Positions 4,048-39,565 of a DNA stretch of 39,565 nucleotides are shown here, piece after piece. The notes under the pieces were generated by a model. It was not told the DNA's origin, made no database searches, and saw only the letters and a list, made by a program, of their open reading frames with translations. Within the stretch, counting starts at the first letter, position 1, and every line of letters begins with the position of its first letter. The stretch lies in assembly GCA_031265365.1 (NCBI GenBank), contig JAISCS010000052.1, positions 1-39,565 on the forward strand. The letters run 5' to 3'. The stretch comes from Verrucomicrobiales bacterium (lineage in GTDB: Bacteria; Verrucomicrobiota; Verrucomicrobiia; Methylacidiphilales; JAAUTS01). Both the position numbers and the translations under genes were made by a program.

Positions 4048-6498
<2,451 letters not shown>

Positions 6499-6560
6499 AT
6501 TGCCTGACGGGGTTTCAGCGTTACGGGGTTAATTGCCGGCGCTGAAACTAAGTGACTTTC

Positions 6561-10925: not shown

Positions 10926-10948
10926 ACCAATAAAAACAGGAAAATCTT

Positions 10949-11360: not shown

Positions 11361-11374
11361 GGAAAGGTAACAGT

Positions 11375-17391: not shown

Positions 17392-18136
17392 CAGAATTTT
17401 ACGGGATTGGAGTGATTCGGAAAAAGTCAACGCGTTATCATGGCAGGCCGAGGTGTTGTTCACCCGTCTCATCATGAAGGCGGATGATTTTGGCCGGTTC
17501 ACGGGCAATCATAAACTAATCAAGGCCGCTTGCTTTCCGTTGCGGGAAGCGGTAAGGGACTCCGACATCTGCCACTGGCTCACCGCGTGTGAGCAAGCCG
17601 CGTTGCTCCGGGTTTATGTCGTCGGCGACAAAACTTACCTGCAAATCAGCAACTTTGGGCAGCGGGTCCGCGAGGGAGTCAAATCCAAATATCCGCCGCC
17701 GTCCGCCGCAGGTCGCGGCGGTTCGCCGCAACTCGCCGCGACCTGCGGCAACTCGCCGCCTTATTCGGAGGCGAAGGCGAAGGCGAAGACGAAGACGGAG
17801 GCGGGAGCGGCTGCGCTGCCACTCGCTGACGCTGAGGTGCCCAAGACAGCACTGACGGCCACCAATGCGCCACCGTTCGGGGATTGCTTTGCCCAGTTGC
17901 GGGTGTCCAGCCCGGACGTGCCGGAGGGCTTTGCCAAGCTGGTCTACGCGGATTGGGTGGGGAACGGGTGCAAGCCGCGCTACCCGGACTACGTGCGGAA
18001 GCGGTGGATGAAGAGCGAGGGCGAGGAGTGGCGCGCTGGCGTCCATAGCGAACAGAAGCGCCGGGCCGAAACCAAAAAGCAGGGAGGGAGTCATGAGCGA
18101 AAGAAGACGTTCGGGCAGCTTGCCGCGGAGGATTGA
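17384..18136 (+). CDS. Phage replication organiser (DnaD/lambda-O-like initiator)
   Basis: 250 residues with a good Shine-Dalgarno sequence (GGAAGGAAG). Residues 1-105 (ILRDWSDSEKVNALSWQAEV, LFTRLIMKADDFGRFTGNHK) form the winged-helix N-terminus typical of phage replisome organisers that sit just before DnaB. A low-complexity linker (about 106-150) is followed by a helical C-terminal part (FAKLVYADWVGNGCKPRYPD), which would contact the helicase or its loader. The linker DNA contains a perfect 16-base inverted repeat and direct repeats, as in the lambda O gene, whose linker carries the replication origin. The gene overlaps dnaB by 44 bases. Confidence 0.75.
   Translation: MPNRILRDWSDSEKVNALSWQAEVLFTRLIMKADDFGRFTGNHKLIKAACFPLREAVRDSDICHWLTACEQAALLRVYVVGDKTYLQISNFGQRVREGVKSKYPPPSAAGRGGSPQLAATCGNSPPYSEAKAKAKTKTEAGAAALPLADAEVPKTALTATNAPPFGDCFAQLRVSSPDVPEGFAKLVYADWVGNGCKPRYPDYVRKRWMKSEGEEWRAGVHSEQKRRAETKKQGGSHERKKTFGQLAAED
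17705..17810. other. Candidate phage replication origin inside the initiator gene
   Basis: GCCGCAGGTCGCGGCG (17705-17720) and CGCCGCGACCTGCGGC (17734-17749) are perfect inverted repeats around 13 bases. The sequence GCAACTCGCCGC occurs twice (about 17728 and 17748). A purine-rich stretch of GGCGAA/GACGAA repeats follows (about 17767-17800). The location matches the origin in lambda-type O genes. Confidence 0.5.
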
Positions 18137-19535
18137 CGTGCGGCTCGCGGAGCTGGTGGAGCCGCGCGGCGAGTTCGCGGAAAAGCAGACGCTGGCGGCG
18201 ATGGCGCAGGACGCGGGGTGCCTGGATTTGGCGCTGGAACGGTTGCGCGAGGATGATTTTTGGCATCCGTTTCACCGGCGCGTCTTCGCGCTGATGGGCG
18301 AGTTGCGGGGCCAGTCAAAGGCGGTGGACGCGGTCTCGTTGCTGGCGCGGTTGCCGAATGACGCGGCGGCGTTGGGCGAGTTGTCCGCCGGCGTGGTGGC
18401 GGTGCTGGTGTTCCCCGATTTGCTCGAGCAGGTGGCGCGGCTGGGGCAGTTGCGGCGCTGGCAGCGGGCGGCGGCGGAGATTTGCGCGCTGACCGCCGGC
18501 GGCGCCGCTGACGACGCGGAGGACATCATCAGCCACGCGGAAAGCCTCGTCAGCGCGGCGCAAATGGCCCAGGGCGCGACGAGTTTGCGTCCGGCGTCCG
18601 AGGTGACGGCCAGCGTCATCGAGACGCTGGATGGGGCGATTGCGCGCCGCCACGCGGGGGTGGCGGCGGTCGAGTTGTCCACCGGGCTGGACAGTCTCGA
18701 CCTGAGCAGCGGCGGACTCAAGGGCGGATGGATGGTGGTCATCGCCGCGCGGCCGGGGCAGGGGAAGACCGCGCTCGGCTTGCAATGCGCGCGGCACAAC
18801 CTCGCCAAAGGCAAGCGGGTCGGGTTTTTCACGCTGGAGATGACCGCCGAGGAGTTGCAGCGGCGCAATCTCGCCGCCAACACCGGTGTCAACCTGCGCA
18901 AAATCATTGACGGTCAGGTGAGCGCCAGCGAGCGCGATTTGATTTGTCAGCACGCGGCGGAGCAACAGCATTGGCCGTTGTTCTTCGAGGATTTGAGCTT
19001 GCTCAACGCCGCGCAGTTGCGCTCCAAGGCGCGGCGCATGGTCGGGCTGCACGGCGTCGACCTCATCGTGCTGGACTACCTGCAGCTGATGGAGGGCAGC
19101 GGCGAGTTCAACCGCGCCACCGAGCTTGCCGCCATCACCAAGACCGTCAAGAACACGGCCAAGGAACTCAAAATCCCCATCGTCACGCTCGCGCAACTCA
19201 ACCGCAAGACCGGCGACGGCGAGACCAAGCCGGCGCCGCACCATCTGCGCGAGAGCGGCAGCATCGAGCAGGACGCGGACATGGTGCTGTTGCTCAGCCG
19301 CGTCGAGAAGACCGATGAGGACGAGCCGGCGGCGAGCGTCAACGACCGCGCGGAGCGGCACGAGCACGCCACGCTGGTTGACCTCGCCAAGAACCGCAAC
19401 GGTCCGACGGGCGAGGAAGTGTTCGTGTTCGAGGGCCGCTTTCAGCGGTTCGTGCCGCCGCACAACCACAAACAACACGATGACCACGACGAGCGCGGCT
19501 CCTTCGCGGCGCGGGCGTTTAAGGAGGCCTCATGA
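18093..19535 (+). CDS. dnaB: Replicative DNA helicase, DnaB family
   Basis: 480 residues. The N-terminal domain (about 20-150) includes EKQTLAAMAQDAGCLDLALE and the FWHPFHRRVFALM motif. The RecA-like domain has Walker A ARPGQGKTALGLQ (about 219-231), FTLEMTAEELQRR, Walker B DLIVLDYLQLM (about 322-332), the LAQLNR motif, and ESGSIEQDADMVLLLSR ahead of KNRNGPTG. All catalytic motifs are intact. DnaB unwinds the phage replication fork as a hexamer. The C-terminus has an unusual histidine-rich extension (HNHKQHDDHDERG). It has a strong Shine-Dalgarno sequence (GGAGGGAG) inside the end of the initiator gene, and its stop overlaps the methylase start. Confidence 0.94.
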   Translation: MSERRRSGSLPRRIDVRLAELVEPRGEFAEKQTLAAMAQDAGCLDLALERLREDDFWHPFHRRVFALMGELRGQSKAVDAVSLLARLPNDAAALGELSAGVVAVLVFPDLLEQVARLGQLRRWQRAAAEICALTAGGAADDAEDIISHAESLVSAAQMAQGATSLRPASEVTASVIETLDGAIARRHAGVAAVELSTGLDSLDLSSGGLKGGWMVVIAARPGQGKTALGLQCARHNLAKGKRVGFFTLEMTAEELQRRNLAANTGVNLRKIIDGQVSASERDLICQHAAEQQHWPLFFEDLSLLNAAQLRSKARRMVGLHGVDLIVLDYLQLMEGSGEFNRATELAAITKTVKNTAKELKIPIVTLAQLNRKTGDGETKPAPHHLRESGSIEQDADMVLLLSRVEKTDEDEPAASVNDRAERHEHATLVDLAKNRNGPTGEEVFVFEGRFQRFVPPHNHKQHDDHDERGSFAARAFKEAS

Positions 19536-21192: not shown

Positions 21193-22995
21193 ATGGCTGC
21201 CGACCGCAATGACGAGGAGGTTTTTCAACTGGGCATCCGGCGTAATCCGGCGGCGTGGTTCGAGAATTTCGGGGTCATTCAGCGGAAGGGCGGCGCGTTG
21301 GCGGGGTTTCCCGACTTGAAGGCGAATTTCATGCAGTTGAAAATCGCGGAGGTGGTGGAGTGGTGCCAGGTCAATCGGGTGCCGTGCCGCATCATCAGTC
21401 TGAAACCCCGGCAGAAAGGTTCCTCGACGTTTTATGTGGCGGTCGGGCACCGGCACCTGGCCAATCAGCCGCGGCGCGGGTGCATTGTCGGCGGGGCGCA
21501 TGAGCAGGGGGAGAAGTTGTTCAAGATGCTGCGGCTCTACGCTGAGCATGACGGGTTTATGGCGCAGCGGGCGAAGGTGCTTGACCGTCACGCGACCTAC
21601 CCGAACGGCTCGACTTGCACGCGCATCACGGCGGCGAATGTGAATTCCGGCACCGGCGGGACGTTCGAGGTGTTGATTTGCACGGAGGTGGCGAAGTGGG
21701 CGGAGGAAGGGGTTGCCAACGCTGCCGAGTTTCTTTCCAATCTGTTGAAAACCGTGCCCAGCACCGAGGGGGCGGAGGAGACCATCATCGTGCTCGAATC
21801 CACCGCCAACGGCGCGAGCGGCGATTTTTACGACCGGTATCAGAAGGCGGTGACCTTCGCGGAGTTGAAAGCCGGTCAACGTGGACATTACGTCAAGCTG
21901 TTCTTCCCGTGGTTCATGTTTCCCGACTCGCGGCTGACGCCGGCGGCGGAGGGCCTCGTCAGCGTCGAGGATTTGACACCGAGGGAGCGCGAGCTTGCCG
22001 CGTTGCACAAACTCGACCTCGCGCAGGTGGCGTGGATGCGCTGGGCGATACGTGAGGAGTGCAAAGGCGACTTCGATATTTTCTGCCAGGACTACCCCTT
22101 CGACGACCAGAGCGCGTTTCTAACCAGCGGGCGGCGGCGGTTTAACGTGTCGTGCGTCGCCAAGATGAAGGCCGGCGCGCTGAGTTATCCGCCGGAGTTT
22201 GGCATGTTTGAGGAGCAGGGCGACGGCGTGCTCTTCCGCCCCGCGCCGCCCGACGAGGCGCGGGTCATGCGCTGGGAGCAGCCGCGCGACGGTTGCGCGT
22301 ACCTCGTCTCGGTGGACGTGATGACCGGCGCGAGCCAGACGGGGGGCGATGACCCCGACAATCACGCCCCACTGGTGTGGCGGCGCGGGTTTTTTGAGCA
22401 CGGGCGGGGCTGGACGCCGCCGCGGTTGGTGTGCCGGCTCATCGGCGACTGGCGGACGTGGGAGCGCGAGCGCAAGTGCGAGTTGCGCTGGGACATTGAC
22501 GTGCTGGAGGAACAGGTCTGGCGCATGTCGCGGTACTACGGCAATTGTCTCATCGTGCCGGAGGTCAACATGGACCGGGGGTTAATCGAACTGCTGAAGC
22601 TGCGTGGCGCGAACATTTATCAGCGCGAGATTTTCAACCGGCGCGAACACACCGTGGACAAGGCGCTGGGCTGGCATACCGACCCGCGCACACGGGAGAT
22701 GGCGGTCGAGTGTCTGGCCCGGCACATCCGCGAGCACGGGCGCGAGAACGGCGGGGTGGACATTCACGACCCGATTTTGCTGGCGGAGTTGGAGAGTTTT
22801 GTGGTCAAGGAAAACGGGCGCAGCGAGGCGATGAGCGGCAAGCACGACGACAATGTGCTGAGCGCCGCCATCGGGCTTATCACCCTGGACGCGGCGACCG
22901 GGTACCGTCAGCCGGCGCGGGAACGGCGGCTGGCGGGGCGCATGGGCAATTTTGACGAGGGGAATCCGCGTGCGGCACGGGCGCAGTATTGGTGA
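21193..22995 (+). CDS. terL: Terminase large subunit (ATPase-nuclease)
   Basis: 600 residues. The ATPase half has a Walker A-like loop SLKPRQKGSST (about 69-79), Walker B FEVLICTEVAKWAEE (about 158-172) and the coupling motif ESTANGASGDFYDRY (about 205-219). The nuclease half has the RNase-H-like acidic residues VSVDVMTG (about 372-379), VPEVNMDRG (about 455-463) and KHDDNVLSAAIGL (about 551-563). All key acids are present, so the protein should translocate and cut concatemeric DNA. It shows that the element is a tailed phage. The preceding gene is the small subunit. Confidence 0.92.
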   Translation: MAADRNDEEVFQLGIRRNPAAWFENFGVIQRKGGALAGFPDLKANFMQLKIAEVVEWCQVNRVPCRIISLKPRQKGSSTFYVAVGHRHLANQPRRGCIVGGAHEQGEKLFKMLRLYAEHDGFMAQRAKVLDRHATYPNGSTCTRITAANVNSGTGGTFEVLICTEVAKWAEEGVANAAEFLSNLLKTVPSTEGAEETIIVLESTANGASGDFYDRYQKAVTFAELKAGQRGHYVKLFFPWFMFPDSRLTPAAEGLVSVEDLTPRERELAALHKLDLAQVAWMRWAIREECKGDFDIFCQDYPFDDQSAFLTSGRRRFNVSCVAKMKAGALSYPPEFGMFEEQGDGVLFRPAPPDEARVMRWEQPRDGCAYLVSVDVMTGASQTGGDDPDNHAPLVWRRGFFEHGRGWTPPRLVCRLIGDWRTWERERKCELRWDIDVLEEQVWRMSRYYGNCLIVPEVNMDRGLIELLKLRGANIYQREIFNRREHTVDKALGWHTDPRTREMAVECLARHIREHGRENGGVDIHDPILLAELESFVVKENGRSEAMSGKHDDNVLSAAIGLITLDAATGYRQPARERRLAGRMGNFDEGNPRAARAQYW

Positions 22996-25814: not shown

Positions 25815-28800
25815 ATGACACCTAAATCGCCGCTACATTTTCGCAGCAACCGCGTCGCGGTGGGAGCCAATCCCGCGCCGACCGAGCCGGAGGAGGTCGC
25901 GCCCCAGCCGGTTGATGTCGAGGATGACGGCGTGGCCGCCGCTGACAATCCCATGCCGGGGGACTACGCCGCGCCGGAACCGGACACGCCGGCGACTTAC
26001 CACGGCGGCGGCACCGGTTTGAATTGGTCGCAAATTTCCAACACCGCGTTCAGAAGTCGCTTCGCCGGTGAAATCGCCGCCGATGAGCGCCGGCAGCAGC
26101 GCGAGGCGGCGGAGTGGCAGCGGTTTTCCGCGCAGCAAAACCGGAATCTGGCGGCGGCGCGGAAGGCGGCGGAAAAACAGGCCAACTCCAAGCGCGAGGC
26201 GGATTTTCGGCGGCGCGGGTTGTCTTACTACAAGAACGACAACGGCGAGATTATCGCCGACCAGAACGACGACGGCAGCGCGAAGTTCAAGCCGCTGGAT
26301 GAAACCCGCTACGACGAGCAGGGCGCCTACCAATACCAGCGCAACGAGCGGGGGGTGATTACGATTAAAGACCCCGACCAAAGCGCCCCGTACGGGAATC
26401 ACGAAAACGACCCCGAGGGGGTGTACCGGAAGAACAAAAGCAAGCCGTGGGAGCGCATCGGCGACGCCGAGGAAGTGTTGAAAAGCGGCAATCTGGGCGC
26501 CGCCGCCGCTGCCGCCAATTATTTGCGTCCTATCAAGCAAGCCGAGCATCTGCAAAAATTGCAAGAGGCGCAAGGGCGCAAGACCGCGCTGGAAGCGGTG
26601 GGCGCTGACAAAGTTTTCAATAAATCAATCGCGTTGGACAAGTACGGCGCGACGGAACGAAGCAAGTGGGAGGCGACGGTGCAGGCTGACTCCGAGCCAA
26701 TCCCCAAGCCGGCGCCGAAGTCCTCCGGCTGGTTCGGCGCCGGGGAAAAACGCATTACCGACACTGATTTGGGAAGGTGGGAGGACAGCGAGGCCGGGCG
26801 CAAACAACGGCTGGCGGAGGCGCAAGCCAATCTTGACCAAGCCGACCGGTATAGCGCGGCGGAAAAGGCGGTCGCCGATTTGAATAACGAGGGGAAAATC
26901 TACAAAAACAACGCCACCTTTTTGCAGCACGCGCGAGCGCAGGAGCGGCAACGCATCAAAGACCTGCCGCCGATCCGCGCGCGGGCGCGGGCGAACCAAC
27001 TGTCCCAGGGGTATGAGCAAAATAAACAAGCGCTGGGCGCGGACTTGCAAGCCTTCAACGCCGAGAAACAAATGCTTGAGCAGGAAGAACAGGCATTGAC
27101 GGCGGAGGCCGCGCAGGGGGTGTCCGGCCCGCAACTGGACGGGTTTAACGCCCGCCGGGCCGCGCTGGCGAGGCGCCGGACTGATTGGCAGCGACAGGGG
27201 GTGACGCTGCAAGCGCGGCATGACGAGTTGAACAATCAAGGCCGTGAATTGAACGATTTTTACGCAGGCCGACCGGAGGAGCAAAAACAAAGCCCCGGGC
27301 CGGACGGTGGGGAACCGCCCGCCGCCGGTAGCGCGGCGGGGTTGCAACCGCCGCCGCCGACCGCGCCATCGTCAGCGGGGCAAAAACCGGACGAGAACAT
27401 CATCATCAGCCCCAACACGCAAACCGAGTGGGATGGCAAAACTTCCGCCGGGAAAAATTCCGACGGTGAACTGGAGCTGTACAACGGCGCCAAGATTGCC
27501 GGTGTATTGAAAGCCGCCGGTGACACGCCGGTGTACCGGGCGACCGGCGCGAAGGTGGCGCGAAAATCAGGCGGCGAGGTTGACGAACTGGCAAAGGGGC
27601 TGAACGACAAGCGCCAGGCGCGGCAGGACGAGCTATCCACCAAGGCGCGGAAACTGTACGAAAGCGCCGGTCTCAGCCTCACGGCGGAGCAAGCCGAGGC
27701 GCAGGAGAAGGCGTTGCTGGATGAGTTTAAGAAAAAATACGCCGCTGACGATGCCGAGGCCAACCAGGTGTTGGGCGAGGCGTTGCAGGATTTTCACGAG
27801 GGCAAAATCAGCGCCCAGCAGGGTCAGCAAATCGCCTCGGCACTCGGGATGGAAAAGAGTTTCGCCGACCTTTACGCCGATGTGTCGGCGGAGATTGCAG
27901 GACCGTCCGAACAACTGAACGCGGCGGCGGATTTTGCCACCAACTTGATTGCAGGTAGCGACCGCGCCAGAGACCACAAGGAATATCACGTTTCAGGTCA
28001 TTTGATGAAATTCGCCGTTGGCGTGGAGGACGCCATCAAAGCCGCCGGTGGATTGACTGCCGAGCGACGGGGGCTGACGCCGGAGCAATTCGACGCGCGG
28101 CGGCACGAGGCGTTCATCACGGCCCAGCGCGTGTTCAAGCAACAGCATCCTGAATGGAGCGCGGAAAAGTTGCGCGCCGAGGCGGAGCGGGACGCTGACC
28201 GTCAGCTGGAGGTCAGGCGGGCGAAGTCGGAAAATAGTCTGGAGGTATCGCATTTAGTCAACAAGTTAGACCGGCAAGAGACCACGGAATGGCGCGCGGC
28301 CAACCAGCAGGCGGTTGACGCCATCAAACAGCAGCAGGAAAAATTCGACGCCGAAACCGAGCGCAAGGTGCGCGAAAAATTTCCCGACCTGACCGACGGA
28401 CAAGTGAAGGCGGTCATGTTGCAATCGGTCATGCGCGGCGTTGCCCGGCAAAAGATAAGCGTCGCGGAGATGACCAAAAATCCCGACTGGTGGATTGAGT
28501 TGGTGCCTTCAATCGTCGCCGGAGCCACGCCGGGGCCGGCAAAAATCCCAATGATGGCCTTGGCTGGCTTGTTTTCCGGTGGCTCAATGTCTGGCTTGCT
28601 GGTTGCCGCGCAAAAGGCGGAGAACGGCACCGCCACGCAGGAGGATTTGGAATTGTTGCAAACGTTCCAGCAGGAAAGCGCCAGAGACAAAACCTTTTGG
28701 GCCGGGGCATTGGATCTGGTTGCTCAAAGCATACCCTTTATGCAGAGCTTCAGCGCGACGGCAGGAATTGCCAAGGGCGCCCGCGCCAAGGCGCAACAGG

Positions 28801-31800
28801 CGGCGATAGCGGCGTTGAAAAAGACGATTGGCGCCAAGGCGACCGGCAATTTGGTTAAACTGGCCGCCAGTGACACGTTGAAGGGCGCGGTAACGCGGAC
28901 ACTGGCAAAAGGATTGAGCGTTAACCTTGTGGAGGAACCGGCGCGGTTACTGTTTGCCTCCGGCGGCACCATCACGAACAACATGGTGCGCGACGCTTTG
29001 CCGCAGTTTGATTTCACGCAAAACGAGGCGGGCGAGTTGTCGGCGACGCTGAACACGCCGAGCAAAACCGGACTGGACGCGCTGACGGGCAACCTCAACG
29101 ACCAGATGATTGAAAACACCTCGGAGCGATTTGGCGGGGTGTTTGGCAATTTGGGGAAGCCGTTGGTCAGGAAAGTGCTGGGCAATAAAAAAATCATGGG
29201 CCTGGCGCTGGCGAAGTGGCTGTTTAATCTCAACGATAACGTCAGCAAGAGCAAAATCGCCGGTTTTTTGAAAGCCGCCAATTTTAACGGGCCGTTGGGT
29301 GAAATGGCCGAGGAACGCTACGGGGATTTCTTGCGGGCGGTGCAGGGCGTGGCGAAAGGCGAGGGGTTTAACTTAAAGATTCCCTCTACCGAGCAATTAT
29401 TACAGGAAGCGGTGGCTTTTGCGGTGCCCGGTACGATTGGCGGTGTGTCGGGCCATTTTGCGCGCAAGGAGGAACTGAAAAAAGCCGATGCCGAGGCGCG
29501 GCAAAAGCTGACCCAGACGCGGCAGGATTACACGGATTTCCTCGCCAGCGCCACGCCGGAGAGTCTGGCGCAGGAATTGAACATTGATGTCGCCCAGGCG
29601 CAAGCCGCCTTGGAATTGGGCGAGACCGGCAAAGGCGCGGCGTCGGTCAAGCTGGCGGAGCAACAGCAAGCGTTACAAGACTTGGCGGACAAGGCGGAGA
29701 AAAAGGGCGACTTGGAAGGCTTGGCGTCGGTACGCCGGCAACAGGCTGAATTAACGAACCAACAGCGGGCTGCCGCCGTGGAGGATGTCAAAGCGCAGGT
29801 GGCGGCGGTGGCGGAACTTGACGCGGCGGAGCAGGCGCTGGCCGAGCAGGAGGCGCAACCGCCCGACCCGAACGCCACACCGGAGCAGGTTGCGGCGCGA
29901 CAGCAGGAACTCGCCGACCAGCGGCAGATGGTCACGCGGGCACGGGCGTTGGCAAAAATCGCCGGTGGCACGCAATTAAACACGCTAACCACGGACGAGA
30001 TGGCGGCGGTCGGGGTCATGGGTGATGGTAAGGGCGGATTCAAATCGGTGGTGAGCGCGCGGGAATTGGCGGGCAACAACACCTTGCAAGCCTCGCCGGT
30101 GCAGGTGGAAACATTTTCCCGCCTTTCCGCCGAGGGTGCCAGGGTGGAAGACCGCGCGCCCATCATCACCGATGGCGCCATCAAGCAGTTGCGGCAAGCC
30201 TTTCCGAACACGGCGAAGTTGATTGGCACCAATGAATCACAGGCGCGAGCCAATGCCTTGCGGCGGACGGCGGATATGCAGCGGGCGGCGGTGAATGCGG
30301 CGAAATTTCAAACTTCAAATTTCAAAAGCCAATTAAATGCCAAATCTCAAAAACAAAATTCCCAAACGAAGACCGCTGACGGTCAGCGGCAGTGGACGGG
30401 GTATGGGAGGAACGGGACGCAAGTCACGGTCAGCGCGGCGACGCGCAAGGAGGCCGAGGCGGAGATTGCCGCGCGGTTGCCGCAGTGGGAGATGATTGAC
30501 GCTGACAGTGTGGAGGAAGTCGCCGCGCCAAGTTCCGCTGACGGTGGGAATGACGCAACCAAGCCGGCTGACTCCAACACCCCGGCGGCTACTGTCAAAC
30601 GGCAGGAAGTCAAACTAGCTTTGCAGAAATTTATTGACCGCACAACCAATCCGCAAACGCGTGAATTCGCGCGACGGATGGCAGAAATTATTGAAAGACA
30701 ACTGGATGTCTATGAATCACTGTTTCCTAGCATCAACTTAAAATCAAAATTTGGGGGGAGTGGCATCGGATATAATCCGACAACAGCAAGTTTAGAAATT
30801 AATTTACGGTCTCTGGCTTTCAATTTAACAAGATCTTCGCGCGACTTTAAGAGTGCCGAAAAAATATTACAAGCACAGTTACGCGAGGAATTAATTCATT
30901 TTATTGCCACTGAGGAAATTGACGACAATCAAGTGGTTGAATTGTGGCTTCGGCTACCGGAGCAAATCAAAGATGCGGTGCGTAAAACCTATTTCAATAC
31001 ACTGGTAGATAAAAATCTGGATTTACCGCAAGAAGATGAAAAAATGCAGTATAAGCTCGGTCACGAGTTTTTACGGATGCTGGCGCAGGACAAGTTTTTC
31101 CGGCAAGTCACCGAAAGCGTGGACGTGTCGCCGGGGCTGTTGGCGGAGTTGCGCGAGTTGTTGGAGAAAATCGGCGCGCATTTGCGCGGCTTGCTGGCCC
31201 GTGACGCCGACGCGGACACCCAGGCGGCGGTGGCGGACGCGCTGGGCGTGATTGAACAGCGGCTGGTGGCCTTGGGCGCAATCGAGGCGAGCAAAACCGA
31301 GTCTGCCACCGGTGAACGTCAGCCGACGGCGACCGAGGAGACCGCCCAGCCGCCGGCCAACGCGCCGCCGCGCCGATTTGACTTGGGCGGTTACGCGGAT
31401 GATGTGCAGCAGGCGGCGACCGAGGCGTTTGCGGGATTGCTAAGCGCGGGGCGGCGGGCGGTGGCGACGCCGGCGGCGGCGCAACAGGAAATTGACTCAT
31501 GGCGCGAGGCGGATGCGAAGTTTGCCGCGCAGGTGGATGCGGCGCTGGCCGGCGTGTTGTCGCGTTACGACACGGTGCGGCTTGGCGGAACACCAGCGGT
31601 ATTACTGGCGCTGAACGCGCCGGATTTGCCGGTGGTGATGGCGCCGTCGGTCATTCGCAAGGTGGTGCAGGAAAAACACGCGGTGGCGGTTGATGATTTG
31701 AAACGATTGCCGGAGCAGCTACGAAATCCGGTCGCGGTGTTTTCCTCGTCCGGCAAAGCTGATTCGGTGGTGGTGTTGACTGAATTATTTGAGAACGGGC

Positions 31801-34800
31801 AACCGGTGATTGCGGCGGTGGCCTTGGAGCGTGAGAAAAACAGCGACCACTTCACCGTCAACGAAGTGACCAGTGTGTACGGCAAGCAGAAAAACGTGCT
31901 GGCGGATTGGGTGCGGGACGGACTGCTGATTTACGAAGACAAAAATAAAACCTTGGCTTGGTCGCGGCGTGCCCGGCTCCAATTGCCGGGGCGACGCAAA
32001 CCAATTCAAGGTTCTTATCAGAAGATACTCAGCCCCGCCGAGGTTGTCAACCATCCGGCGCAAATAAAAGCGCTGGCGGAAAATAAATCCGGCGGGCTGA
32101 ACGCCGGACGCCGTCCCGAAGTTAAAATCCCGACGGCAAAACGCCCGGCGTTTAACCGGCTGGCGGTGGCGTTGCTGAGGGACGGCGTGAGCACCCCGCC
32201 GGCGGTGCGCGAGTTTCTTGAGGCGGTGGACAGTGACGGAGGCGCGTTGCCGTATGGAGGGGAATTGTGGTCGCTCATGCAAGCCTTTGACCAAAGGCTG
32301 AAGGCGATTCCGTGGGCTGAAAACGACAGGCCGCTGACGAAGGAAATGCCCAAGCCGGAGCCGAACAAGCCGCTGACCTTCAGGGAGCAATGGCAACAAG
32401 CCGGTGAATATCAGCCGTCCAAGCGCGCGAAGATGCTGGTACTGCTATTGCGGAACCTGAAAGTGCCGTTGACCACGGCGCAAGTGTTCGCGCGGTGGTT
32501 TGACGAGACCAACGGGGAGTTGGCCGGCAACGAGGCGTTGCGCGACGCGGCCATCGCGGCGTTCCGGCAGTGGGGCGGGCAGTTCCGCGACGAGGTGTCG
32601 GTTTATTCCGAGGCGGTGGACAGCATTCTCGCCGCCGACCACGCGGCGGGCGGGACGATGACGCGCGGGCAAGCGGAGCAACAGGCCGCTGACGCGCGCG
32701 CCGACCGCGAGGCGAAGCAAGCCGCCGTGGACGCGAGCAACACGGCGCTGGCGGAAAAAATTCTTGCTTCCGAGGTTGCCGAAACCGCTGACGGTGAGTA
32801 TCTGTACCATGATGCGACATCTGGAAACACCGACCGGCGAGGGGCTGCTGCTGAGGGATTACCTCGACCAAGTGCCGCCGACGGTGAATCCGATGGATTT
32901 TTACCGGATACTGGACTGGAAAATCAGCCAGGACAACCGGCTGGAACGCAAGAATCGCAACCTGCCGCTGTTTCGGTGGCGGGAAATCAAGTTCGCGGTA
33001 TTGACGGCGAGGCGGCTGAGGGCGGCGCGGCTGAACCGCTGCCGCCGGTGGAGTTCCCCCAGCTTGGGAACCGAGGCACCGCTTACACCGACAACAACGA
33101 CGCCGTGGAGTTTCAGTGGGCGGTGATTGACGCTGACGGTCTGCTGACCAGCAACAACGCCGATTTCACGCCCAATCCGCGTTATCCACAAGCCTTGCAA
33201 CCGCGCGACCGTTCCCGCGCCGCCAGCCGCGAGCAGGTCAACGACATCGCCAAACATACCAACTTCAATCGCCTCGCCGACAGTGACAGCGTGGGCGGCG
33301 GCGCGCCCATCGTCGGCGCTGACGGGGTAGTGGAGAGCGGCAACGGGCGGGTGATGGGGCTGCGGCTGGCTTATCAGGAGTCGCGCCCGAACGTGGCGGA
33401 GTACAAGGCGCAACTGGTCGCCAACGCTGGCAAATACGGGCTGGACGGCGCGGCCATCGCGCAAATGCGGAACCCTGTGCTGGCGCGGGTGCGACGGACG
33501 GAGTTGAACCGGTTGGAGTTTGTCCGCGCGGCGAACGTGACCAATGTCGCCCAGCAGTCCGATGTGGAGCAAGCCCGCGTGGACGCGGCGAAAATCACGC
33601 CGGCGATGCTCAACGGTTTTCAGTTGCAGACGAACGGCGGCATTTCCACCGACGGCCAAGACCCGTTGGTGCGGGCGTTCGTTGACCGCGTGGTGCCGCC
33701 GAGCGAGCGCGGCGGCGTGGTGGACGGCGCGGGCAATTTGTCCGCGCGCGGGCTGGCGCGGATGCGCAACGCGCTGTTCGTCTATGCCTACGGCGGCGGT
33801 GACGCGGCGGGCGTCATGCTCCGGCGCATTGCCGAGGACGTCAGCCCCGACGGAAAGAACATCGTCGCCGCCATGCTGGGCGAGGCGGGGCGCATGGCGA
33901 ACCTGCGCGCGCGAATCGCTGACGGTGAGCGCTTCGACGTTTCCATTGCCGACGACGTGGTGCGCGCCGCGCAACAATGGCTGGAAATGACCCAGCGCGG
34001 CGACCGCGTGGAGGATTACCTGAAACAAGGCGAGATGTTCGGGCGCGACGAATTGCGGGACGACATTTTGCAATTCATTGACGCCAACAAGCGCGGCGTT
34101 AACCGGCTGCGGCGGGCGCTGGCCAATTACGTCGCGCTGGCGGACGCGGCGGGCAGTCCCAAGCAGGGCAATATTTTCGGCGCGAACCAAGCGCCAGCGA
34201 AAGCCGCACTGTGGGCGCTGGCGAAAAAGGCCGCCGCTGACGGTGAGGTGTTGCGCGCCGGACGCCGCGCCACCGACTTGCGCCCGCGCCTGAAAATTTT
34301 CAACCAACTGTTTGAGCGTCAGCGCGCCGGCGAGCGGCTGAATCCGGCGCAGACCGCGTTGTTCAATCGCGTGGAGCGCGAGCTTGGTCAGGCGACGATG
34401 TTTGACGAGGACGCGCCGTCAGCGTGGGATTTGACGCTGGAAGGCGAGACTTACGAGGAGGTGGCGCAGACCGTCAGCCCCGCTTGGACGGAGCAAGGCG
34501 TGTTGTTCGCGTCGCGCCGCCCGGTCGCCTGGGATTGGCTGCCGGAGGAGCAGCGCCGGAAAATCATCGACCCGCGCGTGCGGGAACTTATCAATGGCGG
34601 ACATTTGCATTCGGCGGAATGGGAGACCGAGGAGGTCAGGCGCGACGAAAAAACCGGGCGTTACTATTACGAAAAACTTGAACTGGCGCGGCGGCTGTGG
34701 ATTGAACATTCGCCGAGGGGCGCAGACGGTTATGTCGCGCCGATGGTCACGCTTGACGAGCACGACCCGATTTTGCAGCCCGCCGTCATTAAAAACGCTG

Positions 34801-37800
34801 ACGGTGAGTATGTTTATCAAAAAGAACGGACGCTGGACGGCAAGAACCGAAAAAATTATAACAAGCTGCTGATAGGCTCGCTGGTGGCGAAGTTTCCCCA
34901 AACGACGGGACAGCCGGAAATTTTGATGACCCAGGGCGGCGGTGGCGCGGGAAAGTCCACGGCGTTGCGTCAGATGCAGAAAAGGGGGGAGTTGAGCATC
35001 GGCAAATTCGCCAAGGGCAACGCGGATGATTTTAAGGAAAATAACATCCAGGAATATGCCCGCATTACCGCGTTGGGCGACCCGCGCGGCACACAGGCGA
35101 CGCACTTGGAGAGCGCCATGCTGCTCGATATGCTGCTGAACGAGGCGCTGAAACGCAAGGTCAGCGTGCTTTATGACGGGACGCTTTCGTATGTCGAGGC
35201 GATTGACCGCATCACCGGTCAATTTGCCGGTTACCGCCAGCGCGGCATCAGCGTTTTTGTCTCACCCAAAACCGCCAAGGTCAGCGCGATAGAACGCTGG
35301 ATTAGCGAGGGCCGATTTGTGGCCGTTGACGTGCAATTAAAGGCGCATCGCGGCGCGGAAGAAATGCTGGATTATTTCTTCAGTAAAATTTCGTCCGGCG
35401 AGGCGTTTTATCGCGAAGGCAAGGATTATCGGAAGTTTTTGGTTAAAAACGAAAATGGCGTTTTACCGATTGACTTGGCGACGTATAATATACTTCGGAG
35501 GGAGTATGAAAAAAGAAACGAAACGCAAGGAACTGAGGGAGGACGCGACCTGCGAGGAAGTGGCGGCGACAATCAGCCGGGAGTGGACGGCGGAGGGGTT
35601 GGCGGACAGGTGCCTGAGCGAGGACACGTCGCCGGAGAAGCGGGCGAGGTGGACAGAACGAATGAACGAGGCGTCCAGGGACGCCACCTGGGACTAAACG
35701 CCGGACGCCGCGCGCGGTCAGCGGAGGACGGGCCGAGTTTGTTCGACTTCCTGACCCCGGCGCAGACGCGGCAGGTCAGGCGGCGCGAGGTGGATTTGTT
35801 CGGCGTCCCGACCACGGATGAGGATTTGTTTAGCCTGAATGATTTGGAGGTAAAAAATGAAACAGCAAACCAATTACGAGCGGGTGATGAGCTTCCTCGG
35901 CAACAGCGAGCGGGAGGAAATCGTCAAAATCGCCAGCAATCCGCTGACGCTGGCGGAGGCGCTGACGTTCAAGCGGAACTCGGAGGATTTGCAGCTGACG
36001 CCGGACACGCCAGAGGCGCTGGACGCGGCGAACGCCAGCGCGGAGACGGAGAACGCGGCGGAGGAGATGATTTATTTGCTGATGGACAGCGCGCCGGAAA
36101 CGTGGAAGAAAATCAAGGCGGCGGTGAAGGAGTTAGCCAGCGACGGGGTGGCGGATTACCTCGACCGGATAGAACAATCCCACCGGTCAAACGTCAGGCT
36201 GAAACTGCTGGAGAAAACGGACGAGTTGACGGAGAAAATAGAGGCACTGACCGAGGATTTGCGGGAGACCACGGGACAGCGGGAACGGGAACTCAAAGAG
36301 GAAATAGCGAGCCTGAAAGAGGAACGGAATCGCTTGGAACACCAGCTGGACAAGCTGCAATCCTGAATCGTCCGGCCCCAAATTCACCGGAGCGCAATCA
36401 CGTCATCGCTGACGGTGACACCCTCGCCCCGCGCGGCGACGCGGCGAAACTCAACGCCAATCTCGCCGCCATCCGCTTGTTGCGGCAACTGGAAACCGAG
36501 CGGCGCAATCCCACCGTCAGCGAGAAAAAGACCCTCGCCCAGTACACCGGCTGGGGCGGTTTGTCGCAGGTGTTCGACGACCGCAAGGCGGAGCAATACG
36601 CCGACGGTGAGCACACCACCCGCCGCAACACCGCGCGTTCCTACGAGCGCCACGGCGCCACTTACGCGCAACTGGTTGACGATTACCGGCGGCAGGCGGA
36701 CGCGCTTGAAAACTGGCATCGCAAATGGGGCAAGTGGCACGCTGAATTAAAATCACTGTTGACGCCGGAGGAATACCGCGCCGCCGCCGCGAGCACGTTG
36801 AACGCGCATTACACCTCGCCGGAGGTCATCCGCGCGATGTGGCGCATGGTGGAACGGCTCGGCTTCAAGGGCGGCACGGTGTTGGAACCGGCGGGCGGCG
36901 TCGGACACTTCCTCGGCCTGATGCCGGCACACCTCGCCGACCGCAGCGTGACCGAGGCGGTGGAACTCGACAGCGTGACCGGGCGCATCCTGGCCAAGTT
37001 GTACCCCGAAACCAGCGCGCAGGTGACCGGCTTCGAGGACGCGAGCATTCCCGACAACTCCGTGGACCTGGCGATTTCCAACGTACCGTTCGCCAATGTC
37101 ACCGTCAGCGACAAAACCCTGGACGCGCTGGGCGCGCCGCGTTTTTCGCTGCACAATTATTTCTTCGCCCGCGCCTTGCAAAAAGTGCGACCGGGCGGAT
37201 TGGTCGCTTTTATTACCACCAGCAACACGCTCGATGCCAACGCGCCGCAACGCCGTTGGCTGGCGGAACACGCGGACTTCATCGCGGCGCTGCGGCTGCC
37301 GAACACCGCGTTCAAGGGCAACGCGGGCACGGAAGTCACCACCGACATTATTTTCCTGCGGAAGCCGGACGGTTCACCGTCAGCGACGGCGGAATCGTTC
37401 GCCGGCCTGCAAACCGCCAGGACGCGGCGCGGCGCTGATATTGACATCAACGAGTATTTTGCCCGCCAGCCCGCGATGATTTTAGGCGAACTGGACAATG
37501 ACGGCTCGATGTACGGCGCGAAGGAGCAGATGACCGTGCATCCGTTCGCCAACGGCGAGCCGCTGACGGTGAGCCTCGACCAGGCGCTGGCACGGTTGCC
37601 GGAGAATGTCATCGCTGACAGTGAAGAAGCAAAACCGAGGGCTGAAAGTGGCGGGCGGAAAGTTTCCGCCGGCGGCAAGCTGGGGACGCTGACGCTCAAC
37701 GACGCGGGCGGCGTGGTGATTAACGACGCTGCCGGTGACGAGGAAATCCTACAACCCAAACACCGCCAACTGGCGGTTGATTTTATCAAACTGCGCGACA

Positions 37801-39565
37801 CGCTGAACGAGTTGTACCGGCTGGAGGCGACCGCCGGCGTCGCTGACGCTGAACTGGACGCGCAGCGGGCGCGGCTCAACCAAGCCTACGACGCCTTCAC
37901 GTTGCGGCACGGCTTTGTCCACGCCAGCGCGAAGTTGCTCAATGTTGACCCCGACTACTACCGGCTGGCGGGCGCGGAGCTTGAGGAACCGCCGGCGGGC
38001 GGCAGTCTCCGCGTCGCGCTGTCGCGCCGGAAGCAATACCGCAAGGGCGACGTGTTCACCAAGCGCGTGCTGACCCCGCGCGTCGAGCCGGTGAAGGCGG
38101 ACAATCTCACCGACGCGACGGGCATCTCGCTCGGCTGGCGCGGGCGGCTGGACGCCGATTACATCGGCTCGCTGTTGTCCATCCCGCGCGCCGAGGCGGA
38201 ACGGCAACTGCTTGACAGCGGGCTGGCGTTCCGCAATCCCGCGAGCGGCCTGCTGGAAACCAGCGAGGAATATTTGAGCGGCAACGTGCGGCAAAAACTC
38301 GCCGTGGCCGAGGCCGCCGTCGCTGACAGTGACGCCTACCGGCGCAACGTCGAGGAATTGCGGAAGGTGCAGCCGGCGACGGTGAAACTCGCCGACATTA
38401 ATTTCCACCTCGGCAGCGCGTGGATTCCGGCGGAGGTCGTGCAGTCGTTCGCGCGGGACGTGTTCCAGCAGCCGAATTTGGAGGTGATTTACACGCCCGG
38501 CGTCGGCGAGGTGGTGGGGGACAGTTGGACGGTCAGCATCCCGCGCCGGTTTGATTCTTTCTCCAGTGAAAACGAAGGCACTTATGCCGGCGGCGGGTTC
38601 AACGCCGCCGAACTGTTGGAAAAGGCGTTGAATTTGCAGCAGCCGGAGGTGTTCAAAAAAATCGGCGACAACGAGCGCGTGTTCGACCAGACCGCCACCA
38701 CGCAGGCGAAAATGGCGTTGCAGAAAATCAAGGACGCCTTCGCGCCGTGGGTGATGTCCCGCCCCGCCGTCAGCGAGCGGTTGCAACAGGTGTACAACGA
38801 CACGAACAATTCCCATGTGCTCCGCCGCTACGACGGCTCCCATTTGAAACTGCCGTGGGTGGCGTCCGGCTTTGAGTTGTACTCGGAGAAGAAAAACACG
38901 GTCTGGCGCGCGTTGCAGGACGGGCGGATGCTGATTGCCCACGGCGTCGGCGGCGGCAAGACCATCATCGGCACCGCGATTGCGATGGAGTTGCGGCGGC
39001 TGGGGCAGGCGCGCAAGCCGCTGATGGTGGTACACAACGCCACGCTGGAACAGTTCGCCGCCACCATCGGCGCGATGGCGCCGACCGCGCGCGTGCTGGT
39101 CGGACGCAAGGAGGATTTGGCGGCGGCGAAGCGGAAGGAGTTCATGGCGAAAATCGCCGCCGGTGACTGGGACATGGTGGTGATGGCGCATTCCAGTTTC
39201 GACCAAATCAAGGACGACCCGCGGTTTGAGCGACAAATACTCGCGGAGTTGGAGGATGAGTTGACCGCCGCCATCATTGACCAGGGCGGCAGGACGGACG
39301 GCAAACTGGAGGGCAAGAACCCGACCGTGAAGGAAATGCAGAAGCAGTTGAAGCGGCTGCGCGAGCGCGTCAAGGATTTGCAGAGCCGCAAGGTGGACGA
39401 CGTGCTGACCTTTCAGGAACTGGGCGTGGACGCGCTGATTGTGGACGAGGCGCACTTGTACAAAAAGCTCCCGTTCGTCAGCAAACTCAATCGCGTGGCG
39501 GGCATTGACGGCGGCGAGAGCTTGCGCGGCACCGGCTTGCTGACCAAGGCGCGGTTTATTCAGGA
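25815..39565 (+). CDS. Giant polyvalent protein (MuF-C-like, DdrB/ParB-like, zeta kinase, DNA methylase, DEAH helicase), open at window end
   Basis: One frame runs from ATG 25815 (GGAG nine bases upstream) to the window edge without a stop: at least 4,583 codons. Residues about 86-895 are charged and coiled-coil. A hydrophobic segment lies near 898-935 and NGPLGEMAEERYGDFLRAV near 1157. A MuF-C-like domain spans about 1918-2075 (LGGTPAVLLALNAPDLPVVM...). A DdrB/ParB-like domain is at about 2412-2730, with PRDRSRAASREQVNDIA and ESGNGR at 2507. A zeta-like P-loop kinase follows (GGGGAGKST at 3041; YDGTLSY). Next are an N12-class adenine methylase (about 3530-3850: YTGWGGL, LEPAGGVGHFLG, NVPF at 3756 in place of NPPY) and a superfamily 2 helicase (GVGGGKT at 4377, VDEAH at 4543). 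Such multidomain proteins are known in phages and conjugative elements as polyvalent proteins, thought to enter the cell with the DNA and disarm defence. Domain names are recalled, not searched. Confidence 0.9.
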   Translation, partial: MTPKSPLHFRSNRVAVGANPAPTEPEEVAPQPVDVEDDGVAAADNPMPGDYAAPEPDTPATYHGGGTGLNWSQISNTAFRSRFAGEIAADERRQQREAAEWQRFSAQQNRNLAAARKAAEKQANSKREADFRRRGLSYYKNDNGEIIADQNDDGSAKFKPLDETRYDEQGAYQYQRNERGVITIKDPDQSAPYGNHENDPEGVYRKNKSKPWERIGDAEEVLKSGNLGAAAAAANYLRPIKQAEHLQKLQEAQGRKTALEAVGADKVFNKSIALDKYGATERSKWEATVQADSEPIPKPAPKSSGWFGAGEKRITDTDLGRWEDSEAGRKQRLAEAQANLDQADRYSAAEKAVADLNNEGKIYKNNATFLQHARAQERQRIKDLPPIRARARANQLSQGYEQNKQALGADLQAFNAEKQMLEQEEQALTAEAAQGVSGPQLDGFNARRAALARRRTDWQRQGVTLQARHDELNNQGRELNDFYAGRPEEQKQSPGPDGGEPPAAGSAAGLQPPPPTAPSSAGQKPDENIIISPNTQTEWDGKTSAGKNSDGELELYNGAKIAGVLKAAGDTPVYRATGAKVARKSGGEVDELAKGLNDKRQARQDELSTKARKLYESAGLSLTAEQAEAQEKALLDEFKKKYAADDAEANQVLGEALQDFHEGKISAQQGQQIASALGMEKSFADLYADVSAEIAGPSEQLNAAADFATNLIAGSDRARDHKEYHVSGHLMKFAVGVEDAIKAAGGLTAERRGLTPEQFDARRHEAFITAQRVFKQQHPEWSAEKLRAEAERDADRQLEVRRAKSENSLEVSHLVNKLDRQETTEWRAANQQAVDAIKQQQEKFDAETERKVREKFPDLTDGQVKAVMLQSVMRGVARQKISVAEMTKNPDWWIELVPSIVAGATPGPAKIPMMALAGLFSGGSMSGLLVAAQKAENGTATQEDLELLQTFQQESARDKTFWAGALDLVAQSIPFMQSFSATAGIAKGARAKAQQAAIAALKKTIGAKATGNLVKLAASDTLKGAVTRTLAKGLSVNLVEEPARLLFASGGTITNNMVRDALPQFDFTQNEAGELSATLNTPSKTGLDALTGNLNDQMIENTSERFGGVFGNLGKPLVRKVLGNKKIMGLALAKWLFNLNDNVSKSKIAGFLKAANFNGPLGEMAEERYGDFLRAVQGVAKGEGFNLKIPSTEQLLQEAVAFAVPGTIGGVSGHFARKEELKKADAEARQKLTQTRQDYTDFLASATPESLAQELNIDVAQAQAALELGETGKGAASVKLAEQQQALQDLADKAEKKGDLEGLASVRRQQAELTNQQRAAAVEDVKAQVAAVAELDAAEQALAEQEAQPPDPNATPEQVAARQQELADQRQMVTRARALAKIAGGTQLNTLTTDEMAAVGVMGDGKGGFKSVVSARELAGNNTLQASPVQVETFSRLSAEGARVEDRAPIITDGAIKQLRQAFPNTAKLIGTNESQARANALRRTADMQRAAVNAAKFQTSNFKSQLNAKSQKQNSQTKTADGQRQWTGYGRNGTQVTVSAATRKEAEAEIAARLPQWEMIDADSVEEVAAPSSADGGNDATKPADSNTPAATVKRQEVKLALQKFIDRTTNPQTREFARRMAEIIERQLDVYESLFPSINLKSKFGGSGIGYNPTTASLEINLRSLAFNLTRSSRDFKSAEKILQAQLREELIHFIATEEIDDNQVVELWLRLPEQIKDAVRKTYFNTLVDKNLDLPQEDEKMQYKLGHEFLRMLAQDKFFRQVTESVDVSPGLLAELRELLEKIGAHLRGLLARDADADTQAAVADALGVIEQRLVALGAIEASKTESATGERQPTATEETAQPPANAPPRRFDLGGYADDVQQAATEAFAGLLSAGRRAVATPAAAQQEIDSWREADAKFAAQVDAALAGVLSRYDTVRLGGTPAVLLALNAPDLPVVMAPSVIRKVVQEKHAVAVDDLKRLPEQLRNPVAVFSSSGKADSVVVLTELFENGQPVIAAVALEREKNSDHFTVNEVTSVYGKQKNVLADWVRDGLLIYEDKNKTLAWSRRARLQLPGRRKPIQGSYQKILSPAEVVNHPAQIKALAENKSGGLNAGRRPEVKIPTAKRPAFNRLAVALLRDGVSTPPAVREFLEAVDSDGGALPYGGELWSLMQAFDQRLKAIPWAENDRPLTKEMPKPEPNKPLTFREQWQQAGEYQPSKRAKMLVLLLRNLKVPLTTAQVFARWFDETNGELAGNEALRDAAIAAFRQWGGQFRDEVSVYSEAVDSILAADHAAGGTMTRGQAEQQAADARADREAKQAAVDASNTALAEKILASEVAETADGEYLYHDATSGNTDRRGAAAEGLPRPSAADGESDGFLPDTGLENQPGQPAGTQESQPAAVSVAGNQVRGIDGEAAEGGAAEPLPPVEFPQLGNRGTAYTDNNDAVEFQWAVIDADGLLTSNNADFTPNPRYPQALQPRDRSRAASREQVNDIAKHTNFNRLADSDSVGGGAPIVGADGVVESGNGRVMGLRLAYQESRPNVAEYKAQLVANAGKYGLDGAAIAQMRNPVLARVRRTELNRLEFVRAANVTNVAQQSDVEQARVDAAKITPAMLNGFQLQTNGGISTDGQDPLVRAFVDRVVPPSERGGVVDGAGNLSARGLARMRNALFVYAYGGGDAAGVMLRRIAEDVSPDGKNIVAAMLGEAGRMANLRARIADGERFDVSIADDVVRAAQQWLEMTQRGDRVEDYLKQGEMFGRDELRDDILQFIDANKRGVNRLRRALANYVALADAAGSPKQGNIFGANQAPAKAALWALAKKAAADGEVLRAGRRATDLRPRLKIFNQLFERQRAGERLNPAQTALFNRVERELGQATMFDEDAPSAWDLTLEGETYEEVAQTVSPAWTEQGVLFASRRPVAWDWLPEEQRRKIIDPRVRELINGGHLHSAEWETEEVRRDEKTGRYYYEKLELARRLWIEHSPRGADGYVAPMVTLDEHDPILQPAVIKNADGEYVYQKERTLDGKNRKNYNKLLIGSLVAKFPQTTGQPEILMTQGGGGAGKSTALRQMQKRGELSIGKFAKGNADDFKENNIQEYARITALGDPRGTQATHLESAMLLDMLLNEALKRKVSVLYDGTLSYVEAIDRITGQFAGYRQRGISVFVSPKTAKVSAIERWISEGRFVAVDVQLKAHRGAEEMLDYFFSKISSGEAFYREGKDYRKFLVKNENGVLPIDLATYNILRREYEKRNETQGTEGGRDLRGSGGDNQPGVDGGGVGGQVPERGHVAGEAGEVDRTNERGVQGRHLGLNAGRRARSAEDGPSLFDFLTPAQTRQVRRREVDLFGVPTTDEDLFSLNDLEVKNETANQLRAGDELPRQQRAGGNRQNRQQSADAGGGADVQAELGGFAADAGHARGAGRGERQRGDGERGGGDDLFADGQRAGNVEENQGGGEGVSQRRGGGLPRPDRTIPPVKRQAETAGENGRVDGENRGTDRGFAGDHGTAGTGTQRGNSEPERGTESLGTPAGQAAILNRPAPNSPERNHVIADGDTLAPRGDAAKLNANLAAIRLLRQLETERRNPTVSEKKTLAQYTGWGGLSQVFDDRKAEQYADGEHTTRRNTARSYERHGATYAQLVDDYRRQADALENWHRKWGKWHAELKSLLTPEEYRAAAASTLNAHYTSPEVIRAMWRMVERLGFKGGTVLEPAGGVGHFLGLMPAHLADRSVTEAVELDSVTGRILAKLYPETSAQVTGFEDASIPDNSVDLAISNVPFANVTVSDKTLDALGAPRFSLHNYFFARALQKVRPGGLVAFITTSNTLDANAPQRRWLAEHADFIAALRLPNTAFKGNAGTEVTTDIIFLRKPDGSPSATAESFAGLQTARTRRGADIDINEYFARQPAMILGELDNDGSMYGAKEQMTVHPFANGEPLTVSLDQALARLPENVIADSEEAKPRAESGGRKVSAGGKLGTLTLNDAGGVVINDAAGDEEILQPKHRQLAVDFIKLRDTLNELYRLEATAGVADAELDAQRARLNQAYDAFTLRHGFVHASAKLLNVDPDYYRLAGAELEEPPAGGSLRVALSRRKQYRKGDVFTKRVLTPRVEPVKADNLTDATGISLGWRGRLDADYIGSLLSIPRAEAERQLLDSGLAFRNPASGLLETSEEYLSGNVRQKLAVAEAAVADSDAYRRNVEELRKVQPATVKLADINFHLGSAWIPAEVVQSFARDVFQQPNLEVIYTPGVGEVVGDSWTVSIPRRFDSFSSENEGTYAGGGFNAAELLEKALNLQQPEVFKKIGDNERVFDQTATTQAKMALQKIKDAFAPWVMSRPAVSERLQQVYNDTNNSHVLRRYDGSHLKLPWVASGFELYSEKKNTVWRALQDGRMLIAHGVGGGKTIIGTAIAMELRRLGQARKPLMVVHNATLEQFAATIGAMAPTARVLVGRKEDLAAAKRKEFMAKIAAGDWDMVVMAHSSFDQIKDDPRFERQILAELEDELTAAIIDQGGRTDGKLEGKNPTVKEMQKQLKRLRERVKDLQSRKVDDVLTFQELGVDALIVDEAHLYKKLPFVSKLNRVAGIDGGESLRGTGLLTKARFIQ
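30300..30367 (+). repeat. AT-rich dispersed repeat inserted in frame in the giant gene
   Basis: Reads GCGAAATTTCAAACTTCAAA and continues with CAAATCTCAAAAACAAAATT, a low-complexity CAAA/TTC repeat of the type also seen at about 23001-23027 and 23362-23402. It keeps the giant frame open as a Q/N/K/S-rich segment (KFQTSNFKSQLNAKSQKQNS) and is followed at once by the palindrome GCTGACGGTCAGC. Confidence 0.65.
32809..33126 (+). CDS. Nested gene C: small protein in the +1 frame inside the giant gene
   Basis: 105 residues from ATG 32809 (or 104 from the adjacent ATG 32812). The first 65 residues read like a folded protein: MMRHLETPTGEGLLLRDYLD, QVPPTVNPMDFYRILDWKIS, then QDNRLERKNRNLPLFRWREI. By my count 22 of the first 30 codons end in G or C in this frame against 11 of 30 in the giant frame, where the text is disordered (ATSGNTDRRGAAAEGLPRPS). 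From about 33047 the pattern switches back to the giant frame, so the last 25 or so residues are probably dual-coded. A GGTGAG nine bases upstream, part of a GCTGACGGTGAG motif, is the only ribosome-site candidate. No family recognised. Confidence 0.55.
   Translation: MMRHLETPTGEGLLLRDYLDQVPPTVNPMDFYRILDWKISQDNRLERKNRNLPLFRWREIKFAVLTARRLRAARLNRCRRWSSPSLGTEAPLTPTTTTPWSFSGR
35484..35504 (+). promoter_or_regulatory. TATAAT and strong Shine-Dalgarno sequence before nested gene A
   Basis: Exact TATAAT (35484-35489) and GGAGGGAG (35497-35504) lie directly upstream of ATG 35506, inside the coding sequence of the giant gene. The -35 region 17 bases further up (TTTTAC) is weak. The Shine-Dalgarno element is stronger than most in the window. 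Confidence 0.5.
35506..35697 (+). CDS. Nested gene A: 63-residue protein in the +1 frame inside the giant gene
   Basis: Encodes MKKETKRKELREDATCEEVA, then ATISREWTAEGLADRCLSED and TSPEKRARWTERMNEASRDA. It is charged and helical, like a small regulatory or antitoxin-type protein, though no family is recognised. By my count 23 of its first 30 codons end in G or C, against 15 of 30 in the giant frame, which here encodes a glycine-rich linker (GGRDLRGSGGDNQPGVDGGG). It has a strong Shine-Dalgarno sequence and an upstream TATAAT. It starts right after the zeta-like kinase domain of the giant protein, which is where an antitoxin gene would lie in a toxin-antitoxin pair; that link is speculative. 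Confidence 0.65.
   Translation: MKKETKRKELREDATCEEVAATISREWTAEGLADRCLSEDTSPEKRARWTERMNEASRDATWD
35857..36366 (+). CDS. Nested gene B: 169-residue coiled-coil protein in the +1 frame inside the giant gene
   Basis: Begins MKQQTNYERVMSFLGNSERE, contains AAEEMIYLLMDSAPETWKKI and ends in a long coiled coil (EKTDELTEKIEALTEDLRET, GQRERELKEEIASLKEERNR). A perfect GGAGG lies six bases before ATG 35857. By my count 24 of its first 30 codons end in G or C against 9 of 30 in the giant frame, where the bases read as Q/G/R-rich filler. At the stop (36364-36366) the coding pattern returns to the giant frame with the start of the methylase domain. The giant frame has no ATG or GTG near that junction, so the methylase cannot easily start independently. 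No family recognised. Confidence 0.75.
   Translation: MKQQTNYERVMSFLGNSEREEIVKIASNPLTLAEALTFKRNSEDLQLTPDTPEALDAANASAETENAAEEMIYLLMDSAPETWKKIKAAVKELASDGVADYLDRIEQSHRSNVRLKLLEKTDELTEKIEALTEDLRETTGQRERELKEEIASLKEERNRLEHQLDKLQS

Follow-up and report, generated by a model that had tools for sequence, protein, structure and literature searches.

A giant DarB-type polyvalent protein gene on a Verrucomicrobiales contig and a small reading frame nested before its methylase

Polyvalent proteins are recognised by disparate domains joined in one polypeptide, by being encoded by a phage or mobile element and by entering the host together with the DNA. Among the modules described for the class are the methylase-helicase dyad, zeta-like kinases, DdrB-ParB and MuF (Iyer et al. 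2017, PMC5512222). The closest described systems are the giant DarB-like proteins of podophages, whose genes, as fetched here, encode chains of about 3,640 to 5,145 aa. One such homologue, gp69 of Burkholderia phage JC1, is present in virions, with 51 unique peptides detected (PMC9144972), and in phage P1 DarB belongs to the head and has a small helper, Ulx (PMC9024508). We analysed a stretch of 39,565 nt (hereafter the window), which is a complete contig of an assembly of 2.76 Mb in 213 contigs with a completeness of 77.6%. By the first two of the features named above, the product of its largest gene is a giant polyvalent protein of the DarB type, since five modules lie in one frame and phage replication genes and a terminase lie upstream. 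What deserves description is a small gene that overlaps the giant one directly before the methylase, a feature that extends well past this window.

The giant reading frame and its modules

The giant frame (25815-39563, forward strand) starts with an ATG and is stop-free over 4,583 codons up to the contig end, where it remains open. Given the base composition of the window, the chance of such a stop-free frame is about 10^-73, and the codon model favours this frame almost throughout its length. Its modules follow in the order MuF_C, DdrB-ParB, zeta-type kinase and DarB methylase-helicase dyad (Table 1), Pfam domains being counted when above the Pfam cut-off. A preliminary description of the sequence had proposed a single gene of over 4,580 codons from 25815, unfinished at the edge, in which MuF-C, DdrB/ParB, zeta kinase, methylase and helicase form one polyvalent chain with NVPF and DEAH motifs, and all of this is borne out by the frame statistics, by Pfam and PHROG profile searches and by alignment to relatives. 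Its reading of NVPF as a notable departure from NPPY had to be given up, because N(V/I)PF is the usual form and is present in 28 of 29 aligned short DarBs of the same bacterial class; podophage DarB-like proteins carry NPPF and one faecal phage contig carries NVPF. Its suggestion that the combination is unusual stands for the whole and not for the parts: judging from the sequences covered in our non-exhaustive search, the full combination is new as a whole and is assembled from halves that were already known.

Table 1. Features of the window, with positions, strand and basis of assignment
Feature	Position	Strand	Basis or remark
Sak4-like ssDNA annealing protein	11357..12343	+	sequence search
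DnaB-like replicative helicase	18093..19535	+	sequence search
Terminase large subunit	21193..22995	+	weak phrog_24361 match, E 1e-8; IMG/VR relatives, 29% identity
Giant polyvalent (DarB-type) gene, 3' end beyond contig	25815..39565	+	single ORF, Pfam, PHROG, codon statistics
N-terminal ~1,950 aa, without recognised domain	25815..31664	+	charged, Ala/Gln-rich composition
MuF_C domain (PBECR-type predicted RNase), aa 1951-2046	31665..31952	+	PF18819, E 1.6e-25
N1, weak candidate nested +1-frame ORF between MuF_C and DdrB-ParB	32764..33126	+	start uncertain, without clear Shine-Dalgarno
DdrB-like ParB domain, aa 2427-2560	33093..33494	+	PF18763, E 3.9e-32
Zeta-toxin-like kinase, aa 3028-3187	34896..35375	+	PF06414, E 7.3e-18
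N2, candidate nested +1-frame ORF, 63 codons	35506..35697	+	Shine-Dalgarno GGAGGG at 35497-35502, p = 0.0002
N3, nested +1-frame ORF, 169 codons	35857..36366	+	Shine-Dalgarno GGAGGT at 35846-35851, coding score
GWGG, aa 3579-3582	36549..36560	+	read from translation; fits LPD36 motif
DarB-type adenine methylase, ~aa 3636-3930, EPAGGVGHF and NVPF	36720..37604	+	PHROGs, alignment to relatives
SF2/SNF2-type helicase, first domain, aa 4368-4547, GVGGGKT P-loop and DEAH	38916..39455	+	PF04851, alignment

The DarB dyad is defined by an EcoKI/TaqI-like adenine methylase with NPP(Y/F), preceded by LPD36 and followed by a SWI2/SNF2-type SF2 helicase of two NTPase domains. In the window it is covered from aa 3636 to 4582 by the PHROG 'DarB-like antirestriction' (E 1.8e-288), with NVPF at the methylase motif. 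The helicase match to ResIII (PF04851) has an E-value of 3e-5 and 24.3 bits against a cut-off of 22.5, and the second helicase domain is cut off by the contig end. In a tree the dyad of the window falls outside the two main groups, on a long branch whose placement is unsure. The zeta-toxin-like segment scores 65 bits with PF06414 (cut-off 22.3) and contains, by inspection of the translation, a GGGGAGKST P-loop and an NADDF motif; a PDB sequence search with this segment gave no match. Similarity to DdrB of phage P1 extends in tblastn to about aa 2770 of the giant protein. The GWGG tetrapeptide agrees with the LPD36 motif, defined as GXG(G/A/S) (PMC5512222); no match to the LPD36 profile was listed in the Pfam scan of the giant protein.

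The N-terminal region gave no Pfam domain above the cut-off and no phage tblastn match, and contains one hydrophobic stretch near residues 911-931. Of the two segment-wise checks proposed in the preliminary description, profile searches yielded the domains listed above and structure prediction yielded nothing, the AlphaFold single-sequence models of the N-terminal region being uninformative (pLDDT 47 and 43). PDB sequence searches with parts of the giant protein returned nothing useful, and peptide-pattern scans of IMG/VR and GTDB contigs with pieces of it brought up no relative.

No contig of the same assembly continues the gene past 39565, and searches for the rest of the helicase gave no convincing match (one weak match, E 7e-4). 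The figure of over 4,580 codons is therefore a lower bound, and the stop codon and structural genes that an extension was expected to reveal remain out of view. Beyond the aligned end, phage relatives extend for 1,758-2,236 more codons, one faecal contig for 620 and one short DarB for about 606, so that the full-length protein would probably measure about 5,200-6,800 aa.

It could be argued that internal starts divide the modules among two or more proteins, and that the frame runs on through the linkers by accident or as an effectless fusion. In-frame internal start candidates with a Shine-Dalgarno-like sequence are present, but the one at 36837, for example, is an ATG that sits within the methylase, past its NAHYTSP motif. 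The giant frame is anti-coding inside the linker, yet it stays open across the nested ORF described below in all giants with a continuous record and in 24 short DarBs, which is beyond chance. Separate encoding of DarB and DdrB in P1 offers a precedent, against which stand the lack of an intervening stop between the modules and the detection of the homologous giant in virions by mass spectrometry (PMC9144972). We regard separate products as unlikely and treat the frame as encoding one chain.

Small reading frames nested before the methylase

Three linkers of the giant frame score below the +1 frame in the codon model. N3, which gives the strongest signal, scores +92 bits as compared to -95 bits for the giant frame over the same stretch. 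Such a signal could in principle arise because the linker is rich in Gly/Arg/Asp and the gene is rich in G+C, in which case N3 would not be a gene. The longest +1-frame run is close to the shuffle mean, so that length alone is unremarkable, and no homologue of N3 was found in phage records, 384 genomes of the class or IMG/VR. However, when the giant frame was resampled synonymously (5,000 samples), the +1-frame scores had a mean of -21 and a maximum of 16, far from the value of N3; GGAGGT lies upstream of its ATG; and in other DarB families the same slot is occupied by a gene that shows a substitution signature of its own. An artefact of composition thus seems quite improbable, and we treat N3 as a probable nested gene. 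The probability that the giant frame is open given the N3 protein is about 0.001, a value softened by the choice of this locus for its long ORF.

The earlier suggestion of nested genes is well supported for N3 and plausible for N2, for which no relatives were found in 20 related genomes; N1 is weak, and the long antisense ORFs do not exceed chance once corrected for multiple testing. The long antisense ORF of 604 codons reaches p = 0.025 for its own frame and is unconvincing across five frames.

The same slot is filled in phage giants. Each of the 18 phage giant DarB genes that we examined carries a +1-frame ORF of 90-132 codons there, which goes unannotated in all 18 records. These ORFs end close to where the methylase match begins, the distance being about 500 nt in Atu_ph08 and PBC5, and in 18 of 18 the codon score is higher than that of any of 1,000 null samples. 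Eleven of them form one family, those of five Burkholderia phages form a second and two stand alone. Nested-frame identity is higher than giant-frame identity in 13 of 13 phage pairs, although these pairs share species, several of them closely related, and the counts are not independent tests. Substitutions at DarB positions 1/2/3 number 16/10/10 and 9/2/2 inside the nested ORF as compared to 9/8/102 and 6/3/57 in the flank; DarB position 1 is position 3 of the nested frame, and substitutions inside the nested ORF therefore peak at its own third position, unlike those in the flank.

One member of the phage nested family gave a weak TnpV match below the Pfam cut-off, and the link between the BcepIL02-type nested proteins and the TnpV-like family is no more than suggestive (hhalign probability 29). 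Plasmid searches with two nested proteins found none. The literature searched, which lay largely outside subscription journals, contained no earlier report of a nested DarB gene. In the Sinorhizobium phage PBC5, where the record has the giant gene split, positions 5924-6500 encode a TnpV-like nested protein in the frame of the upstream orf33, with the methylase in another frame; this discrepancy may be due to a sequencing error or to frameshifting. The giant gene of PEp14 has, 2490-2700 nt from its start, a further +1-frame segment that is preceded or accompanied by a Shine-Dalgarno sequence and whose statistics are coding-like.

The profile of the phage nested family also matches a small ORF within short Verrucomicrobiota DarBs, with E-values from 1e-13 to 1e-19. 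In 24 such DarBs the small ORF is located in the +1 frame inside the 5' end of the open DarB frame, and an in-frame DarB ATG is present 70-124 nt upstream of it. The nested frame is favoured in 14 of 14 pairs, with 111/89/327 changes at nested positions 1/2/3; since 7 of the 24 loci are close relatives, the pair counts are not independent. Taken together, these results make the overlap between DarB and the small gene look old.

N3 was also considered as a member of the TnpV-like family, but neither hmmsearch nor hhalign gave support against the profile of phage and Verrucomicrobiota nested ORFs. The TnpV-like profile has no match in the host genome. With no homologue and no profile link to this family, the conservation of N3 is one of place and frame only.

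Host and phage context

The left end of the window carries host genes, namely those for Sua5-, homoserine-kinase- and H+-pyrophosphatase-like proteins, read from their translations. The nearest relatives of the H+-pyrophosphatase are in Verrucomicrobiales MAGs (91 and 89% identity), which agrees with the Verrucomicrobiota host proposed earlier. From about 9.7 kb onwards phage-type genes follow (Sak4, exonuclease, RusA, replication initiation, DnaB, methyltransferase and terminase), which agrees with the phage context proposed in the same description. Because host genes at the left end are followed by phage-type genes, the element carrying the giant gene is probably a prophage. No integrase was identified within the window, and no structural genes are visible in it beyond the weakly matched terminase. 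DarB matches are frequent on plasmids, and many members of the class have short DarB genes, but with Sak4, exonuclease, RusA, replication initiation, DnaB-like proteins and terminase upstream, and with the giant homologues found being podophage genes, it is very improbable that the giant gene is part of a conjugative or satellite element instead of a phage.

Two repeats are present in the left part of the window. At 3277-3520, between host genes, a tandem repeat has units of about 21, 42 and 84 bases (ACCAACGCCGTTGGTAAC...), and at 10416-10766 an 18-base unit in about 19.5 copies yields a repetitive frame of ASRLA units in the ORF 10405-10980. The final 208 bases of the window (39358-39565) match positions 4083-4290 of another contig of the assembly, C131, with one mismatch, the last 119 being identical. 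C131 is 4,290 bp in length and carries host-like genes and a tRNA-Leu at 3884-3964; the match may reflect a second copy or remnant beside the tRNA gene, or an assembly branch or chimera. In a genome of the same genus, a MuF_C ORF of 1,544 aa (G003:C86, 3-4634) is cut by the contig start.

Proposed role and comparison with known systems

In our judgement the gene is likely to encode a giant DarB-type polyvalent protein that is packaged and injected to protect the DNA, with a double-coding linker before the methylase. By analogy, the protein would be a late product that is taken up into the phage head and reaches the next cell along with the DNA. There the methylase-helicase dyad may travel along the incoming DNA and guard it against restriction; the targets of the DdrB-ParB, MuF_C (predicted RNase) and zeta kinase modules would lie in the host. 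In the linker, the giant frame would serve as a low-complexity spacer and the +1 frame would encode a distinct small protein translated from a ribosome-binding site of its own; from the sequence we infer that both frames are translated in this phage. The slot appears to be an old feature of DarB genes, occupied by a TnpV-like helical protein in most of the DarBs examined and by an unrelated 169-aa protein here. The small protein may aid the folding or packaging of DarB, or hold it inactive, for which Ulx of P1 would be a parallel. More tentatively, with confidence a little short of even, we propose that DarB genes in general carry an overprinted small gene before the methylase, that its product is a dedicated partner of DarB and that unrelated proteins can take over the slot, as here.

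Giant injected proteins are a main way in which phages bring counter-defence into cells, and a conserved hidden gene missing from the annotations examined suggests that a probable component of DarB antirestriction has been overlooked. It is also an overlap in bacterial viruses whose two frames can be traced through many lineages and compared with a short form found in bacterial genomes.

Among known systems, the podophage giants (Erwinia PEp14, Klebsiella SopranoGao, Burkholderia BcepIL02 and JC1, Microcystis Mwe-JY07) share 34-37% identity with the window over most of the 1,078 aa of the dyad and, like it, have one chain of thousands of residues with a nested +1-frame ORF just before the methylase. 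Their N-termini, where scanned, bear transglycosylase, cell-wall hydrolase or InPase domains instead of MuF_C, DdrB-ParB and zeta, and their nested genes belong to families other than that of N3; across all four giants scanned with Pfam, DdrB-ParB is the one further N-terminal module. The 4,675-aa protein of Pseudoalteromonas phage vB_PalP_Y7 resembles the window in its chain of DdrB-ParB, methylase and helicase and in a +1-frame ORF at the same place, but has an ART domain, and MuF_C and zeta were not found in it. A 2,311-aa Verrucomicrobiota ORF (G281:C15) joins MuF_C and Zeta_toxin in one chain as the window does, with ART domains and without the DarB dyad. In phage P1, DarB and DdrB belong to the same protein classes as modules of the window but are separate genes, and a nested ORF was not found at the 5' end of P1 darB. 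The short DarBs of the class (about 1,700 aa) share with the window the N(V/I)PF methylase, the helicase and a small +1-frame ORF, which is TnpV-like there, and differ from it in being without the large N-terminal modules.
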